In this document: positions 1,666 through 32,236 of the stretch, one piece after another
How the letters are laid out: the number at the start of each line of letters is the position of its first letter
How positions within the stretch are numbered: the first letter of the stretch is position 1
Assembly: GCA_023386955.1 (NCBI GenBank)
Contig: JAEWIS010000044.1
Span: 248,001 to 312,000 of the forward strand
Origin: Bacillota bacterium
GTDB lineage: Bacteria > Bacillota > Bacilli > Paenibacillales > NBRC-103111
DNA: 64,000 nucleotides
Direction: 5' to 3'
The notes under the pieces: model-generated
Databases searched by the model: none
What the model saw: only the letters and a program-made list of their open reading frames with translations
Told to the model about the DNA's origin: nothing
Made by a program: the position numbers and the translations under genes

Positions 1666-1815
1666 TAAATACCGGCAAAAAAGCAGCAGCGGAACGGTCG
1701 AACGGATGAGCATTTTCCTACCAGATAGAGCTCAGAAACGCTAAAAATCCCTCTTGCGTTTTACAAAAAGCATAGGTATAATTAGTTCTTGTCCGGCAGA
1801 CATACCGGAAGCTAC

Positions 1816-1837
1816 GGGGCCTTAGCTCAGCTGGGAG
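1816..1837 (+). pseudogene. Truncated tRNA-Ala, 5' half only (unit A)
   Basis: Twenty-two bases match the 5' half of tRNA-Ala (acceptor strand GGGGCCT, then TAGCTCAGCTGGGAG). The match stops at the end of the D-arm and runs into unrelated sequence that contains the small palindrome CCGGCATGGCCGG. No partner 3' half with AGGCTCC or similar was found in the window. Confidence 0.6.
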
Positions 1838-1895
1838 TCCGGCATGGCCGGTTACACTACCCCAACGAATTGAATACCAGCGTAAGTTTAGGGAT

Positions 1896-1917
1896 GGGGA
1901 ATTAGCTCAGCTGGGAG
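1896..1917 (+). pseudogene. Truncated tRNA-Ala, 5' half only (unit B)
   Basis: Acceptor strand GGGGAAT then TAGCTCAGCTGGGAG. It stops at the same D-arm base as unit A. Its acceptor strand does not fit the intact tRNA at 1978, but it pairs with the orphan 3' half at 5682-5740 (ATTCTCC, six Watson-Crick pairs plus one G-U). Joined there, the two pieces make a normal 73-nt tRNA-Ala(GGC) plus encoded CCA. Confidence 0.7.
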
Positions 1918-1977
1918 CACACCATGTAGTATTCACCAACCCAGCGAATGAAGTTAAAAAGTAAGGATTAATAATTA

Positions 1978-2050
1978 GGGGCCATAGCTCAGCTGGGAGA
2001 GCGCATCGCTGGCAGCGATGAGGTCAGGGGTTCGATCCCCCTTGGCTCCA
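1978..2050 (+). tRNA. tRNA-Ala (anticodon GGC)
   Basis: A full 73-nt cloverleaf: acceptor GGGGCCA/TGGCTCC with one G-U pair, D-arm GCTCAGCTGGGAGAGC, anticodon stem CATCG/CGATG around loop CTGGCAG (anticodon GGC), T-arm AGGGG-TTCGATC-CCCCT, and discriminator A. CCA is not encoded. It starts 82 bp after unit B and 162 bp after unit A, so the three lie in a regular tandem array, and it is the only intact one. A rho-independent terminator follows directly. Confidence 0.95.
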
Positions 2051-2059
2051 TATAAAAGA

Positions 2060-2085
2060 GTCCGCAAAATATGCGGGCTTTTTTT
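2060..2085 (+). terminator. Terminator of tRNA-Ala
   Basis: Stem GTCCGCA/TGCGGGC with a five-base loop, followed by seven T. Confidence 0.85.
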
Positions 2086-2449
2086 GTGCAATTTTTTGTA
2101 TCCACAGGCTTTCTCCTGATGATGCCGAGAACACTTTCCTCTTATTTTAATGTTTTATGACTAACACTCCCTCAAAATATAATCTGAAAATTGGCAAATT
2201 CGAATAAGGCAATTGAACAAGGTAAAAAGAACTACATAGAGCCTCCTGCATTTGGCAGGGTTCTTTTTGTTTGTCGAATTTGGGAATAATTCCTGGATTT
2301 CGGAGAAGATATAGGTTATTATTACTATAAAGATAACTTGAACTCAACATAAAAAGTAATTTGACAACTTTTTAACTACTACATACTCCAAATCAGTCTA
2401 TGGCTTATAAGTTCTTCAATGGCAGATGCTTGACTTAGGAGGGAGACAG
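2086..2449. other. AT-rich spacer with a possible second terminator
   Basis: No gene is supported here. Bases 2224-2268 can fold with CCTGC/GCAGG and an outer AAAAAGAAC/GTTCTTTTT pairing ending in a T run, which could act as a terminator. Base composition shifts here from the balanced host type to AT-rich, marking the start of the acquired segment. The 5' leader and promoter of the next gene must lie in the last 150 bases; no convincing -35/-10 pair was picked out. Confidence 0.4.
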
Positions 2450-5400
2450 TTGGATATCTTATTTTTACAGTTAAGCGATATTCATATCGAGGACAAAAAC
2501 AGTATAAGTTACTTTCATTTAAAGAAAATTATACACGCAGTACGTGCTCAGAAGCCATTTGATTTTTTGTTCTTAGTTTTGTCTGGAGATATTGCGTATT
2601 CTGGACAAGAACATCAATACGATGTTGCTTATAAAATGGTTGGACGAATAATTAATTTGTTAAAAACTGAATGTGATTTTTATTCAAAAGTTCACATTAT
2701 ATTGGTTCCGGGAAATCACGATGTAGATATGTCAGGATCTCCCCTAACTTCTAAAGAACTTATGGATATGAGAAAGAAAAATAGCTTTACATGGTATATG
2801 AATACAGAATTGGAAAAACAGAGACATTTTTTCAATTTTGCTAATAGGAATAAATTATTTACTTATAATAAATTATTTGAGCACTATACTGTTCAGTTAA
2901 CAAATGATTTTTCTATTGAAATAAATTTAATTAACAGTGCTTTATTTTCTACATTAGAAGAAGACAAAGGACTTCACTTTCTTCCGCAAGATGTCATTCA
3001 AAGTGTGAACAACCCAACTGAAGCTGATTTTGTAATAACAGTTATGCATCATCCATCTGATTGGTTTATTGATACAACAATGCAACCATTGGAAAATGTC
3101 ATATATTCGAAGAGTAGTTTAGTTTTTTATGGTCATGAACATTTTCAGGCTACGTCTATGATTATTAATGAGCAATCAAAAGGAGCACTAATTCACGCTG
3201 GTGGTTGTTTGAGCGAAAAAAATAGATGGGATAATAGTCAATTTATCATAGGTAAGTTAAGTATTATTGAAAAAAAGTATGTATACATTGTAAGCAAGTA
3301 TAAATGGAATTTTACTCAAAACCAATATGAAAGAATGCAAGAAAGTAAGCATTATCTTCCAGATAAACCATCAAGAGAAAGAAACTTAATTATTATTTCA
3401 GATTATAAAGAGAAACTCCTAGTTGACACAAAACAAGAGGCGTTTAAAGACTTTACAAGGTATTTTGTGTTTCCTCGTATGGAAACAATGGAATTACCGA
3501 TGAGTCACACAAGAGAATTCATAACTGATGATGAATTTATAGAAGAAGTTTTGACAAAGAAAAAAGTGATGATAAATGGTCAATATAATACTGGAAAAAC
3601 TACATTATTAAAATGGTTATTCATGCGTCTTATAGAAAAGGGATACACCCCTATACTGTGTGACTCTGAAAACATCCAAGGGAATCCTAAAAGAATAATT
3701 AAAAATTGCTTTGAGGATATATATGGAGATAATGCTTCTGATTTTCAAAGATTTGAGCAAATCTCTAAAGATAAAAAAATATTTTTAATTGATGACGTTG
3801 ATTTAATTAAACCAGATCACTTTGAGAAACTTATAAGTGGAGTTTGCGAGGAATTTTCTTACTTCATATTTGCTTCGAAGCATACGCATAATTTGGATAT
3901 GATAGAACGGATGAAAACTTATTTAAAAACAGCTGATTCTATTCATAAATATCAACTTACAATGTTTTATTCAGATAAAAGAAATCAGTTAATCCAAAAG
4001 GCTGTAGAATGTCACTTAAATGATCAATTTGCTATTGAAAAAGTAACTCAACAAGTTTCTGAACTAATAAAGGCCCAAAAAAGACTTATACGGTTTGACC
4101 CGGATTTTATTTTAAAATACGTAGCATATTATTGTAAAAATGTAGGAGATACTACTACTCGTACAACCAATATATTTAGTAAAGTTTTTGAGGCAAGCAT
4201 AATAAATTCACTTAATAGATACGGTGCAAGAATCTCAGTTGAAAAAGCATTCATGTTGTTATCAGCTATAGCTTATGATGTTCATTTTGGAAAGATTTAC
4301 CCCATTCCTGGAGATGTTATTAAGAATAGTATAGATAATTATAATAAAGAATATGGAGCGAATGTACCGTTTGAGGAAGCGTTCTCATTATTTATTGAAG
4401 CAAAAATAATTATTCCCAACGAGGGAGAAATTGATGGACCACGCACTTATCGATTTGCAAATAAAAGCTACTTAGCTTTCTTTGTTGCCCGTCGATTAAA
4501 TGTGCAATACCATGAAACTGGTGATGATGGAGATCTTCAATATATTATTAAAAATGCATGTTTTGGAATAAACGCTGATATACTGCTATTTATAACATAT
4601 ATTACTGATAATGTTCGAATATTGCGATTTATCTTAGACATGGTTGATAGTTACACGAAAGATTGGGTTGAATTCTCATTGAATAATCTCCCAAATTTTT
4701 TGAAATGGAGAAAAAATCACCGTGTTGATTCACCATCCCCTGATGCCTTTGAACAACATGAAAAGAACGTAATTAACGAGGAAAAGCAGGTACAAAATGG
4801 GATAGAAACAGTTGATTTATATGACTACTCAGATGAAGAAGCTGATAAGGAATTTAACTGTATACTTCGTGCAATCCAATTATTATCAATTGTAGCAAGA
4901 TGTCTTCCCATTTTCGAACACATTATGAAGAAACCAGAGAAGGATAGATTTGTTAAGCAAATATATGAACTTCCCAACAAAATTTTTCGAGTTTGGTCGA
5001 ATTGGGTTGATAAAGAAGCTGAGGAATTCATAAGATATTTTGAGCAACAGCCGGATCATTACTATGTAAAGCAAAGGGCAATGACAACACAAGACATTGT
5101 TCAGGCACTTCAGTGGACAGCTATGTCGTTTCTGTTAGATCTATATAAAATGTCTATGGATCAGGCTACAAAAGAGCATACCCTAAATTATTTTGAAGAA
5201 TATCCTCAAATGGAAACCCAAAATGAACTATACAAATTACAGTATCTTATTGCTTTGGAAGTACAAGGCACAGGTAATAGTTTTGTAACAACTGCCATAC
5301 AACTTAGCGAGAGTACGAAAGAGCCCCTAATACAAACAATGGTTGCTCGTGTAGTAACTACTGCAAGTGTATTTAAAAAAATGCACTTTAAAGACAATCA

Positions 5401-5497
5401 AAGACTTCAAGAAGCTTTTTTTAAAGGAACACAGTCTCGTTCGCTTCGTAGACCCCAAATGCTTTTAATGCAGCGACAAAAACGTAGGGACGAATAG
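2450..5497 (+). CDS. Metallophosphoesterase-NTPase fusion, STAND-like putative defence protein
   Basis: 1015 residues from a TTG at 2450. This start is chosen because AGGAGG at 2437-2442 sits seven bases ahead of it; the in-frame ATG at 2426 lies upstream of that site. The N-terminal 250-290 residues carry all five calcineurin-like phosphoesterase motifs in order: SDIH (D10, H12), SGD (D47), PGNHD (88-91), MHHP (about 205) and YGHEH (about 228). A P-loop NTPase follows, with Walker A GQYNTGKTT at about 377 and Walker B IFLIDDVD at about 443. The remaining 400 or so residues are helical and without a family I recognise. A nuclease-type effector fused to a sensor NTPase is the usual plan of STAND/Avs-like anti-phage proteins; that role is inferred. 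The gene is very AT-rich and lies alone inside a split tRNA gene. Confidence 0.85.
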   Translation: MDILFLQLSDIHIEDKNSISYFHLKKIIHAVRAQKPFDFLFLVLSGDIAYSGQEHQYDVAYKMVGRIINLLKTECDFYSKVHIILVPGNHDVDMSGSPLTSKELMDMRKKNSFTWYMNTELEKQRHFFNFANRNKLFTYNKLFEHYTVQLTNDFSIEINLINSALFSTLEEDKGLHFLPQDVIQSVNNPTEADFVITVMHHPSDWFIDTTMQPLENVIYSKSSLVFYGHEHFQATSMIINEQSKGALIHAGGCLSEKNRWDNSQFIIGKLSIIEKKYVYIVSKYKWNFTQNQYERMQESKHYLPDKPSRERNLIIISDYKEKLLVDTKQEAFKDFTRYFVFPRMETMELPMSHTREFITDDEFIEEVLTKKKVMINGQYNTGKTTLLKWLFMRLIEKGYTPILCDSENIQGNPKRIIKNCFEDIYGDNASDFQRFEQISKDKKIFLIDDVDLIKPDHFEKLISGVCEEFSYFIFASKHTHNLDMIERMKTYLKTADSIHKYQLTMFYSDKRNQLIQKAVECHLNDQFAIEKVTQQVSELIKAQKRLIRFDPDFILKYVAYYCKNVGDTTTRTTNIFSKVFEASIINSLNRYGARISVEKAFMLLSAIAYDVHFGKIYPIPGDVIKNSIDNYNKEYGANVPFEEAFSLFIEAKIIIPNEGEIDGPRTYRFANKSYLAFFVARRLNVQYHETGDDGDLQYIIKNACFGINADILLFITYITDNVRILRFILDMVDSYTKDWVEFSLNNLPNFLKWRKNHRVDSPSPDAFEQHEKNVINEEKQVQNGIETVDLYDYSDEEADKEFNCILRAIQLLSIVARCLPIFEHIMKKPEKDRFVKQIYELPNKIFRVWSNWVDKEAEEFIRYFEQQPDHYYVKQRAMTTQDIVQALQWTAMSFLLDLYKMSMDQATKEHTLNYFEEYPQMETQNELYKLQYLIALEVQGTGNSFVTTAIQLSESTKEPLIQTMVARVVTTASVFKKMHFKDNQRLQEAFFKGTQSRSLRRPQMLLMQRQKRRDE

Positions 5498-5519
5498 CAT
5501 GTCGGTCCTGCCCCGACTG

Positions 5520-5545
5520 GGTCGTTCTCTGATGTAAAAACGACC
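5520..5545 (+). terminator. Hairpin after the metallophosphoesterase-NTPase gene
   Basis: Seven-base stem GGTCGTT/AACGACC, 22 bases after the stop codon. It lacks a T tract, so it is only a weak terminator candidate. Confidence 0.35.
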
Positions 5546-5681
5546 GATTTACAACAGAGTGAAGGCATGTCATCTAGCCACGCTGATGCTACTCGTCTTT
5601 TATTAAAGTATGCCCTAAGGATTGTCCCTTATACTTTATGAGCCAAAATGAATTCAAAAGGGTGTGTAAAGGACTATCCGC

Positions 5682-5740
5682 GGGAGAGCGCATCGCTGGC
5701 AGCGATGAGGTCAGGGGTTCGAGCCCCCTATTCTCCACCA
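5682..5740 (+). pseudogene. Orphan 3' half of tRNA-Ala with encoded CCA
   Basis: Starting at GGGAG (end of the D-arm), 41 bases are identical to the intact tRNA at 1978, including the GGC anticodon. The T-arm differs by one base and the acceptor strand is ATTCTCC, then A and an encoded CCA. There is no 5' half next to it: upstream is unrelated sequence. ATTCTCC pairs with GGGGAAT of unit B at 1896, not with the intact tRNA. A good terminator follows. This is probably the displaced end of the original tRNA gene. Confidence 0.8.
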
Positions 5741-5751
5741 ACACCACACAC

Positions 5752-5775
5752 AAACGGCAGAGATGCCGTTTTTTT
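5752..5775 (+). terminator. Terminator behind the orphan tRNA 3' half
   Basis: Stem AAACGGCA/TGCCGTTT, four-base loop, T run. It was probably the terminator of the ancestral tRNA transcript. Confidence 0.85.
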
Positions 5776-5849
5776 ATCTGTGTTTCCGAGTTGGATACAT
5801 GTTGGTTGCTGTGTGTCGCTCGTATGACGGCGGATAGGAGGCTGTAACC

Positions 5850-12161: not shown

Positions 12162-12769
12162 GTAAAACCAACAAAATTCTTATTCCCGTCCTTCTCCTCC
12201 TATTCGGATATTCTGCGGTTGATCTTAGCTGCTATTTCCTTAATTTCTACTGGTCCAAAAAGCAAATAACAAATTTGGAGCGAATGATGGATGATCAAAT
12301 CGTTCCTCCGTATTCCGTCATCATGGATTCAAATTCTCCAGATGCGATCAGTACGAAAAGAACTATCCCGGCGCAAGGGACAGAGATGCTTCCCGAATTC
12401 CATAGCCTGTATGCCGAGAATGCGGATATTATGACAAAAAAGAAAATCAGAATGGGCTGCCCTTCTTGGATATCCGCTGTAATATTCTTCAGTCTCCTGT
12501 CCTGCTCATCCATGGCCACAGTATGAAAAATGGTCATATATTCGGGGAACTGTTGAAGTATAAGGATAAAGCGTATTACGAGGCGCATCCGTTATCCAAT
12601 TCAGTTCTTTGTTTGAGAGGGCGGATTACAGGATAATGGCTGTCATCGTCTCAGGGATTTATCCCAAATCGGAACGACGGTTTAAATACTACCAGATTGA
12701 CGGGACGGATACTGAAGCCGGATTTAGCCGGTATATCTTAAACGTAAAGAGTCTTTCTCTATATGAGTT
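12158..12769 (+). pseudogene. Sortase B, frameshifted and truncated
   Basis: Sortase B features are spread over three frames. Frame 1 (from 12158) has the N-terminal membrane anchor (IPVLLLLFGYSAVD) and HSLYAENADI. Frame 3 (about 12442-12600) continues with VLLIHGHSMKNGHIFGEL and KYKDKAYYEAHP, the catalytic-His region. Frame 2 (from about 12609) gives ERADYRIMAVIVSGIYPK and RFKYYQIDGT...VKSLSLYEF. Shifts lie near the A-run at 12434-12447 and near 12600. The chain then runs straight into an FFRR repeat, and the catalytic-cysteine motif (TLxTC) is absent. It cannot make an active transpeptidase. Confidence 0.85.
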
Positions 12770-12957
12770 TTCTAACGAATCTCAGCCACGCTATTTCACC
12801 AATTTGGCTCTTCTTCCAGCTCTAATGAATCTGAGACGCCTTATTCCGGCAAAAGACGTAGAAATGAGCTCCAGTGTAAGCAATAGCGTGGCTCAGTTTC
12901 ATTAGATTTCCAAACGGCCACTTTTTCGCGAAATAAGGTTCGTGAGATTCGTTAGAA
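12770..12957. repeat. FFRR inverted-repeat element, copy 2
   Basis: 188 bp. Forward units TTCTAACGAATCTCAGCCACGC (approximately 12770) and CTCTAATGAATCTGAGACGCC (approximately 12822), reverse units AATAGCGTGGCTCAG...ATTAGA (approximately 12890) and AAATAAGGTTCG...CGTTAGAA (ends 12957). Diverged from copies 1, 3 and 4 but with the same order and length. It lies exactly where the sortase B gene loses its C-terminus. Confidence 0.75.
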
Positions 12958-12975
12958 AACTTTTACAAACGTTCC

Positions 12976-20128: not shown

Positions 20129-20857
20129 TCAGGCATGCCCCCCCTCAAAGGGCAGGGAAAGAAACGCCCGCTTAATGGAATCGAAACGGCCGCGTGAAAG
20201 CGGAAGGATATCCTTTGTCATCATGGTGATTTCCTTGCCGGTTAAGGATTGTACATGCCTCAGATTGACCATGTATGACCGGTGTATCTTGACAATAAAG
20301 GGATAAGGCGACAGCTTTTGCTCCAGCTCGGACATGCTGCCCGGCCCATCCAGGACCCTGCCCGTGGCCAGGTGGTAGTATATGGTTTTGTTGATAATCT
20401 CACAATAGGCAAGCTCCGCAATAAATAGCCTGGCGATACTTCTGTGGTTATGGACCACAATGCTGCTGGAGCGCTCTGCCTGAATTTCCTTGCAGGCCTT
20501 GTTCATGATGCGGAAGAAGGTATTCTCGCAGAGAGGCTTTAGCATATAGAAGTACGCATCAACGGCGTAACTGGCCACTGCAAATTCGGAGCTGGAGGTC
20601 AGAAAGATGATTTTCACATGATCGTTCCCCCGCCTGATTTCGGCTGCCGTCTCCAAGCCGTTTAAGCCGGGCATCATTACGTCCAGAAGAATAATATCAA
20701 AGGCGGGGCGGCGTTCTGCAGCATCAGCAAGCGCGAAGCCCGATTCGTATATTGTGCAGGACAGCTCCACACCGCTGCTGGCGGCAAATTGCTCGAGCAG
20801 CTTGCGGAGGTTTGCGGCTTCCCTTCGGTCATCCTCGCAAATCGCAATATGCAGCAT
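20129..20857 (-). CDS. LytTR-family response regulator (pair 2)
   Basis: 242 residues from the ATG at 20857, chosen for GGAGGG eight bases upstream. Receiver domain with CEDD at 6-9, phospho-acceptor Asp in DIILLDVMMPG at about 57 and Lys in MLKPL at about 108. LytTR domain at about 140-240 (PFIVKIHRSYMVNLRHV). Upstream lie two direct repeats 21 bp apart, the spacing expected for LytTR binding, so it probably regulates its own operon. Confidence 0.9.
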   Translation of the reverse strand: MLHIAICEDDRREAANLRKLLEQFAASSGVELSCTIYESGFALADAAERRPAFDIILLDVMMPGLNGLETAAEIRRGNDHVKIIFLTSSSEFAVASYAVDAYFYMLKPLCENTFFRIMNKACKEIQAERSSSIVVHNHRSIARLFIAELAYCEIINKTIYYHLATGRVLDGPGSMSELEQKLSPYPFIVKIHRSYMVNLRHVQSLTGKEITMMTKDILPLSRGRFDSIKRAFLSLPFEGGHA

Positions 20858-31157: not shown

Positions 31158-31205
31158 GAAGAGGTGGTCTCCTAGCGTGGTGCACTCCTATACGATTTCA
31201 ACCCC

Positions 31206-31243
31206 AATAGACCGCCCTTGACTGAAGGGGACGGTCTATTTTT
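31206..31243 (+). terminator. Hairpin terminator within the left long repeat
   Basis: AATAGACCG/CGGTCTATT with inner CCCTT/AAGGG, then T. Confidence 0.75.
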
Positions 31244-31267
31244 GGGTTTGGCTTATCTCCGCCGTGA

Positions 31268-31456
31268 TTCTAACGGACCTCAGAGCCGCTATTTGGCTCA
31301 AAAGGAGGCGTCTCGAATTCTAACGGACACCACAGTCGCTATTTCGGGTAAATGAGCTCATTTCAAGGCTGATATGGCTCAATAGCGGCGCTGTGGTCCG
31401 TTAGAATTCCCACACCCCGTTTTTCAGCCAAATAAGGTCGCTGGAGTCCGTTAGAT
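31268..31456. repeat. FFRR inverted-repeat element, copy 3
   Basis: 189 bp: forward TTCTAACGGACCTCAGAGCC and TTCTAACGGACACCACAGTC, reverse AATAGCGGCGCTGTGGTCC and AAATAAGGTCGCTGGAGTCC, each closed by CGTTAGA. The second forward unit pairs best with the first reverse unit, and the first forward with the last reverse: nested hairpins. Confidence 0.85.
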
Positions 31457-31536
31457 TTCCGCCACCACCAACAAAATAAGAAAATGCATCCTCCTTTTGA
31501 TTTAACCGATATAATAGTTGTATTAGAGGTGGAGAG

Positions 31537-31740
31537 GTGTTCTTATTGAAGAACTTCCCAAGACTATTCATACTCCTCTGCGGTGTTGGAGGATTGGCCA
31601 TTGAGATAAGAGGATTAGTCAGATCCATAAATAACAATGAGAGTATAGTTTTTGATGTAGTAGGCGTTTGCATATGGATTCTCTACATTCTTATGTCGCA
31701 ATACAGCCTTAAAACGAAAAAAGGAAAAAAAGATGCTTAG
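31537..31740 (+). CDS. Small two-helix membrane protein
   Basis: 67 residues from GTG at 31537 with AGGTGG four bases ahead; a TTG at 31546 is a reasonable alternative. Two membrane helices (about 9-27 and 40-56) and a lysine-rich tail (KTKKGKKDA). Lone gene between two long direct repeats; function unknown. Confidence 0.5.
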   Translation: MFLLKNFPRLFILLCGVGGLAIEIRGLVRSINNNESIVFDVVGVCIWILYILMSQYSLKTKKGKKDA

Positions 31741-31788
31741 TACCCTTGGAATCACCAGATGGGCCGTTTCCCGCTGATGGGACGGGGG

Positions 31789-32075
31789 CTCCTAGTGTCC
31801 TGCGCTCCTATACGACTTCAATTGAAAATAGACCGCCCTTGACTGAAGGGGACGGTCTATTTTGGGGTTTGGCTTATCTCCGCCGTGATTCTAACGGACT
31901 TCAGAGCCGCTATTTGATATAAAATCAGCCTTCTCAGATTCTAACGGACACCACAGTCGCTATTTCGGGTAAATGAGCTCATTTCAAGGCTGATGTGGCT
32001 CAATAGCGGCGCTGTGGTCCGTTAGAATTCCCACACCCCGTTTTTCAGCCAAATAAGGTCTCTGTAGTCCGTTAG
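31789..32075. repeat. Long direct repeat, right copy
   Basis: Repeats 31169-31461: CTCCTAG, the CTATACGA segment, the AATAGACCG hairpin, TTGGCTTATCTCCGCCGTGA, and the FFRR units. Together with the left copy it could recombine to delete the small gene between. Confidence 0.85.
31825..31863 (+). terminator. Hairpin terminator within the right long repeat
   Basis: AAAATAGACCG/CGGTCTATTTT with inner pairing; terminates the small membrane-protein gene. Confidence 0.75.
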
Positions 32076-32115
32076 CTCCTCGCCGCTACAATAAGGTCGC
32101 TGGTATCCGTTAGAT
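31889..32115. repeat. FFRR inverted-repeat element, copy 4 with an extra reverse unit
   Basis: The basic FFRR part (31889-32075, 187 bp) is followed by one more reverse unit (ATAAGGTCGCTGGTATCC then GTTAGA, ending at 32115). So units can be gained singly. Confidence 0.8.
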
Positions 32116-32236
32116 TACCGCCGCAATGCCAAGTCCGCTGCTTACGCTCAGCCCCAACCGCCCCCATGACAAGGAGCACTCCCATCCGCCCACCCTCAAC
32201 CGCCAGTCCCTACTCGTAAACGCAATACTGGTCAGC
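32116..32236. other. Non-coding spacer
   Basis: C-rich sequence downstream of the DinB gene; no supported gene or hairpin seen. Confidence 0.4.

Follow-up and report, generated by a model that had tools for sequence, protein, structure and literature searches.

A tRNA-Ala gene split in its D-arm by a probable relative of serine-recombinase elements that appear to replace host tRNA genes

We analysed a window of 64,000 nucleotides from a Bacillota bacterium of the order Paenibacillales (assembly GCA_023386955.1, contig JAEWIS010000044.1, positions 248,001 to 312,000), in which a tRNA-Ala(GGC) gene, here called B, is interrupted within its D-arm by an insert of 3,769 bp (segment 1913-5681). From the comparisons below it is very probable that this segment is a small, presumably non-autonomous relative of integrative elements that are moved by a large serine recombinase (LSR) and replace a host tRNA gene. 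With less confidence we favour a wider reading, according to which this LSR family destroys the host tRNA-Ala(GGC) or tRNA-Val(GAC) gene and supplies a working copy, its D-arm rewritten with the structure kept, that escapes the recombinase; the element would thus be protected from itself, and the host would come to depend on the copy. Element tRNAs would in places have been fixed as the host gene (tRNA-Ala in genome G320, tRNA-Val in G202), members that keep the target would stack as a fossil row of 5′ halves, and cargo-only versions would carry defence genes. Numbers with G, C and L are our own handles for genomes, contigs and loci.

The array (1816-5740, Table 1) began with the 5′ half of an outer split tRNA-Ala gene, A, and continued through a 58-bp arm (x1), the B 5′ half, a 60-bp arm (y), an intact tRNA-Ala(GGC) called C, a gene for a 1023-aa metallophosphoesterase-nSTAND protein and the right arm to the B 3′ half, followed by a terminator. 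When the two B halves were fused at GGGAG, a tRNA-Ala(GGC) of 76 nt with all stems paired was obtained. ARAGORN called the intact tRNA-Ala gene and a defective one at 5671-5740. In Paenibacillus sp. YN15 an uninterrupted B gene was found, to which fused B with its terminator was identical over the first 111 of 126 compared nucleotides, and which sits behind the same neighbour gene (protein 84% identical), presumably nagZ-like. A preliminary description of positions 1896..5740 had proposed that the gene is split in its D-arm and that a complete copy carried by the insert replaces it, and had predicted an intact GGGGAAT...ATTCTCC gene in a relative. All three found support, though the YN15 gene probably belongs to another element. 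That description had captured the split of B and left out A, and with it the nested array; the copy it took for a different isoacceptor has the same anticodon, GGC, and differs in the acceptor stem.

Table 1. Features of the split tRNA-Ala array, with positions counted from the first nucleotide of the window.
Feature	Position	Strand	Basis and remarks
Promoter-like TTGCGT-17 nt-TATAAT (candidate)	1754..1782	+	By eye; absent from consensus scan output
tRNA-Ala A, 5′ half (GGGGCCT...GGGAG), GGGGCCTTAGCTCAGCTGGGAG, outer split gene	1816..1837	+	Sequence reading
Left arm x1, outer element	1838..1895	+	Resembles both YN15 arms
tRNA-Ala B, 5′ half (GGGGAAT), GGGGAATTAGCTCAGCTGGGAG, attL of inner insert	1896..1917	+	Sequence reading; proposed crossover GG at 1913-1914
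Left arm y, inner insert	1918..1977	+	Match to left arm of G209 LSR element
Intact replacement tRNA-Ala(GGC) C, acceptor GGGGCCA/TGGCTCC, without encoded CCA	1978..2050	+	Sequence reading, ARAGORN
Cargo gene, 1023 aa, calcineurin-like phosphoesterase and nSTAND NTPase	2426..5497	+	PADLOC candidate PDC-S60
Right arm of insert (...GGGTGTGTAAAGGACTATCCGC)	5621..5681	-	Match to right arm of G209 LSR element
tRNA-Ala B, 3′ half with encoded CCA, ending ATTCTCCACCA, attR	5682..5740	+	Sequence reading, ARAGORN
Terminator of tRNA B	5752..5777	+	By eye; same in YN15

The arms of the insert connected it to an element with a recombinase. In G209 we found a 16.5-kb element with a tRNA-Ala, a tRNA-Lys, a CBASS system (SMODS cyclase and SLATT effector) and an LSR with Resolvase, Recombinase and Zn ribbon domains. 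It ended at a tRNA-Ala 3′ half (attR), behind which the host tRNA-Lys followed. Among 10 scanned ORFs of G209 one was the serine recombinase and none a tyrosine recombinase. The left arm of the window insert was compared with the left arm of this element, and the right arm with its right arm; in both comparisons 0 of 5000 shuffles scored as well. Separately, in G138 (L197, C1 ~2074219) a decayed tRNA-Ala 3′ half was observed behind a right arm of the G209 type (GGGTGTGTAAATGACCAT), 4 kb from the intact tRNA-Ala of that genome, probably as an old right border of an element of the window type.

Of the 392 genomes of the order, 27 (G209 and 26 others) contained LSR homologues (threshold E<=1e-60), at 28 places in all; in YN15 the homologue lay 18 kb downstream of the array. 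A clear tRNA half was present at the LSR 3′ end, or within ~150 bp of it, at 12 of the 28 places: tRNA-Ala 3′ halves in G104, G265, G341, G156, G202 and G390, tRNA-Val 3′ halves in G191, G155, G138 and G140, and 5′ halves in G045 and G023. Decayed-looking halves were seen by eye at five more places (G309, G160, G189, G233, G268). The Val-associated LSRs formed one clade with a support of 100/100 in a tree of 22 of the 28 places (G140 and five broken or partial LSRs were left out). In a class-level sample LSR matches were detected in 16 of 398 genomes; two additional ones (G502 and G628, 50% identity) adjoined a tRNA-Ala 5′ half, and at six matches of 30-33% identity no tRNA was found in the DNA read there. 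Searches of plasmid and phage collections yielded no close LSR; the matches, in 1 plasmid record and 3 phage records, had 31-35% identity.

Two further observations were made near LSR genes. The tRNA-Val halves of G045 lie ~70 kb apart (C56 ~172-242 kb; L275, L164) with the LSR at one end, possibly as the borders of a large Val element. In YN15 (L119, 12587-14257) a 556-aa gene follows the LSR at the scaffold end.

Intact target sites were found in relatives of G341 at the locus of its 10.4-kb element. Its left flank had a match in 75 of 75 genomes of its genus, and the best 20 of these 75 loci, G341 among them, were read. The tRNA-Ala was split in G341 and intact in 18 of the 19 other loci, with a tRNA-Lys directly behind it in 13 of the 18 empty sites; the flank of the nearest one, G401, was 97% identical to that of G341. 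The remaining locus, in G320, held an LSR remnant and a carried-type tRNA, and the host tRNA-Ala was not found in the DNA read; it is a relic. YN15 was rejected as a simple empty site. Its A half is identical to that of the window and its arm is similar, and next to a TIR gene on contig C111 we found the matching 3′ half (AGGCTCC); when fused, the two halves were called as tRNA-Ala. Because of this A 3′ half and the LSR downstream of the array, the intact YN15 tRNA is most likely that of another element, and the locus most likely shows an uninterrupted B gene rather than element-free DNA.

The tRNA genes beside the LSRs were altered at the proposed target. At 21 of the 28 places the LSR had an intact tRNA-Ala (12 places) or tRNA-Val (9 places) no more than 0.6 kb upstream, and in 21 of 21 the D-loop was one nucleotide shorter or longer (CAGTGGGA, n=10; CAGTCTGGGA, n=2; CAGCGGGA, n=9) than the reference CAGCTGGGA (as in CAGCTGGGAG). 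At the empty site all intact host tRNA-Ala genes (18 of 18) had the reference form, as had the Val 5′ half of G191. In 10 of the 12 Ala copies the D-stem was changed too, from GCTC/GAGC to GTTC/GAAC or a near form. At other places an altered copy was found on another contig (G104), Val halves accompanied a related altered Val (G045), or the Val copy lay 63 kb away on the same contig (G233). Where an Ala-Lys operon had been cut, in G209 and G341, the element also carries a copy of the tRNA-Lys that follows tRNA-Ala in the host operon; G160 and G176 likewise carry copies of both tRNA types.

In the genomes with Ala elements no tRNA-Ala(GGC) was found beyond that of the element and the attR half (11 of 11, strict pattern), and in control genomes with Val elements (n=2) the same pattern matched an ordinary Ala gene. 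The strict pattern would overlook a tRNA with GGTAGAGC in its D-arm, which a looser pattern (<=2 mismatches) permits; the looser pattern gave one extra match each in G209 and G265, both of them fragments in which no tRNA was called, so that by both patterns another intact Ala(GGC) gene was lacking. As tRNA-Ala(UGC) may still read these codons, we do not claim that the element tRNA is essential. Carried-type tRNA-Ala genes were also seen with no LSR in the DNA read (L264, L271, L272 and L273; 30 of 48 matches read). In G202 (L280), where 3 kb were read and no LSR was seen, an altered tRNA-Val stands beside a tRNA-Val 5′-half scar, probably as a replacement that was fixed after loss of the element.

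Intact tRNA-Ala genes preceded by a row of 5′ fragments were found in 3 of 104 genomes of the family of YN15 and, by a looser pattern, in 6 of the 392 genomes of its order. In three of these six (YN15, G209 and G393) the fragments broke in the D-arm at GGGAG. In the other three the break was in the anticodon arm (G058, L115; G090, L116/L121; G013, L131), with the fragments directly upstream of an intact tRNA-Ala(GGC) and two of them continuing into CAATTGAATA. These may be of another kind, apparently scars left by a different enzyme or at a different crossover. On contig C4 of G104, four tRNA-Ala 3′ halves, some damaged, were noticed at 20551, 24403, 26263 and 48861 (L161, L162, L211); they are probably several right ends of such elements.

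The left junctions of Ala elements read CTGG^GAG (caret at the junction), and the right junctions GG^GAGAGC or, in YN15, G104 and G265, GG^TAGAGC. Only GG is common to all of them, as would be expected from a serine recombinase whose core is 2 bp long and not from a 5-bp duplication, and we therefore propose GG as the crossover core. The preliminary description had offered GGGAG as either a target duplication or the recombination core; the core does appear to lie within GGGAG, and the duplication was contradicted by the TAGAGC junctions. A DDE transposon with terminal inverted repeats and a GGGAG duplication would account for GGGAG at both junctions of the window insert and for the resemblance of the right arm to the inverted x1 arm (p about 0.017). 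It would not account for right junctions in which GGGAG is not a copied target, nor for an insert whose sole ORF of at least 100 aa is the NTPase gene and whose arms match an LSR element, and we consider it very improbable. The DDE_3 gene inside the G341 element was read as cargo.

A decayed classical island of a tyrosine integrase, of the type that leaves a 5′ fragment, has a precedent in 159 of 3919 Islander islands, as given in an excerpt of that report (PMC4383910), and G090 has a tyrosine integrase downstream of a tRNA-Ala with an upstream fragment. The linked recombinases here are of the serine type, however, the crossover is in the D-arm and not at the anticodon loop, T loop or T/acceptor junction described in the same excerpt, and a whole gene restores the tRNA while both host halves stay displaced; such an island is hardly to be expected. 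Nor do we give much weight to tandem duplication and decay of tRNA-Ala genes with no mobile DNA. The repeat units of 80-83 bp, two of which are identical in G209, would suit it, and it may explain some of the extra left units, but duplication alone leaves the intact sites of relatives, the cargo between the halves, the common arms and the linked LSR unexplained. The least credible of the alternatives, which we regard as scarcely conceivable, is a functional split tRNA joined in trans: its halves are complementary, but an intact tRNA-Ala lies between them, and the displaced 3′ halves are mutated in G202 and G156.

Several results weigh against an LSR-moved element that replaces its target. No recombinase was detected in the window insert, and the best tblastn match of the G209 LSR in the whole window had an E-value of 0.48; the insert is thus presumably non-autonomous. 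No tyrosine integrase was found there among the ORFs and their classification, and the earlier claim that the insert lacks an integrase held. The acceptor stems pair like brackets, A outside and B inside, yet the partner 3′ half of A (AGGCTCC) was not found in the window. G209 and YN15 have two left units each against one matching right end each, fewer right ends than strict nesting predicts, so that some units may be tandem duplications. The inverted termini hinted at in the preliminary description were weak for the window pair, since arm y against the reverse-complemented right arm did not rise above shuffles (p about 0.73), and x1 against the right arm gave the p of about 0.017 named above; elsewhere the inversion gave p values of 0.03 (G209), 0.0065 (G341), 0.058 (G202) and 0.66 (G191), and 0 of 2000 shuffles in the YN15 outer pair and in G104. 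The closest relatives of the window type, G209 and YN15, carry at their far left end a tRNA that is not altered, so that alteration is not a general feature. At two of the 28 LSR places (G115 and G082) no tRNA was found in the DNA read. Finally, G341 has a tRNA-Val of the altered type with neither scar nor LSR in the 3 kb read, so that for Val this form is perhaps an ordinary allele.

The cargo gene of the window matched the PADLOC candidate model PDC-S60 (9e-25), in agreement with its earlier description as defence-like, and is probably an anti-phage gene. Genes of defence type recur in these elements, with CBASS and a TIR gene in YN15 and CBASS in G209. Three cargo proteins of G341 had no PADLOC match, and the 2.3-kb element of G191 has little room beyond the tRNA and the LSR; defence cargo is thus recurrent and not defining.

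From the arms, the core, the linkage and the empty site we infer that the LSR would join a circle of the element to the D-arm of tRNA-Ala(GGC) at GG in CAGCTGG(G/T)AG; a very short common core (GG) was present at the hybrid sites of GG^GAG and GG^TAG elements alike. A separate clade of LSRs would use tRNA-Val(GAC). The sequences show the host tRNA cut in two, with a 5′ half on the side of the promoter (attL) and a 3′ half at the other end (attR), and they show that the element carries a complete tRNA gene in place of a fragment from which the tRNA would be rebuilt. In the window type this gene follows attL at a distance of ~60 bp and in the same orientation, and could be transcribed from the host promoter; transcription from the promoter-like sequence at 1754..1782 would run on across the array as far as the intact tRNA. 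Since C retains CAGCTGGGAG it could be targeted again, and later elements would then insert into such copies and leave nested 5′ halves, A and then B, on the left. The pairing of A and B supports this re-targeting and nesting of unaltered copies and does not prove it. Where the carried tRNA stands beside an LSR, it has gained or lost one nucleotide of the D-loop at the crossover, frequently along with paired changes in the D-stem, and this would plausibly prevent self-attack. The host halves would decay and the cell come to depend on the element tRNA for this anticodon. The window insert itself would need an LSR supplied in trans.

Outside the array, repeats with inverted units like AATAGCGGCGCTGTGGTCCGTTAGA were noted in the window at 31161-32122, ~12766-12961 and ~21930, two 263-bp copies being 92% identical; they are perhaps an intergenic repeat family.

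If this mechanism is correct, it would offer a natural case of target recoding for self-immunity and a direct route for mobile DNA to replace a core gene of its host, and the set of LSRs with a conserved attB might be of use in genome engineering. It would also be an exception to what the excerpted Islander report (PMC4383910, 2015) describes, in which no recombinases other than those of the tyrosine type are known to act on tRNA genes, the crossovers include none in the D-arm, and the tRNA is restored by a tRNA fragment in attP. Among titles and abstract openings in the open literature, no description was encountered of a serine recombinase that uses a tRNA D-arm and brings a whole tRNA along, which is weak evidence of novelty.

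According to that excerpt, Islander islands share with the present elements the insertion inside a tRNA gene, the preserved tRNA function and a displaced fragment at the far end; they differ in the tyrosine recombinase and in restoration by a fragment, where here the enzyme is of the serine type and a whole tRNA gene is brought. Tycheposons, as outlined in part of PMC10872708, are likewise cargo-bearing elements at tRNA genes, with a tyrosine recombinase and other hosts. The PLE islands (PMC6002521) resemble the present elements as anti-phage islands that bear an LSR, and the opening of that abstract contains nothing on a tRNA target or a carried tRNA. The word 'tRNA' occurs 0 times in the main text of the LSR catalogue of Durrant et al. 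(PMC10083194). To judge from that main text, the LSR elements catalogued there have the same Resolvase-Recombinase-Zn-ribbon recombinase, a very short core, attL/attR hybrids and one cut target gene; the elements described here differ from them in their tRNA D-arm target and in the complete, often altered, replacement gene that they carry.

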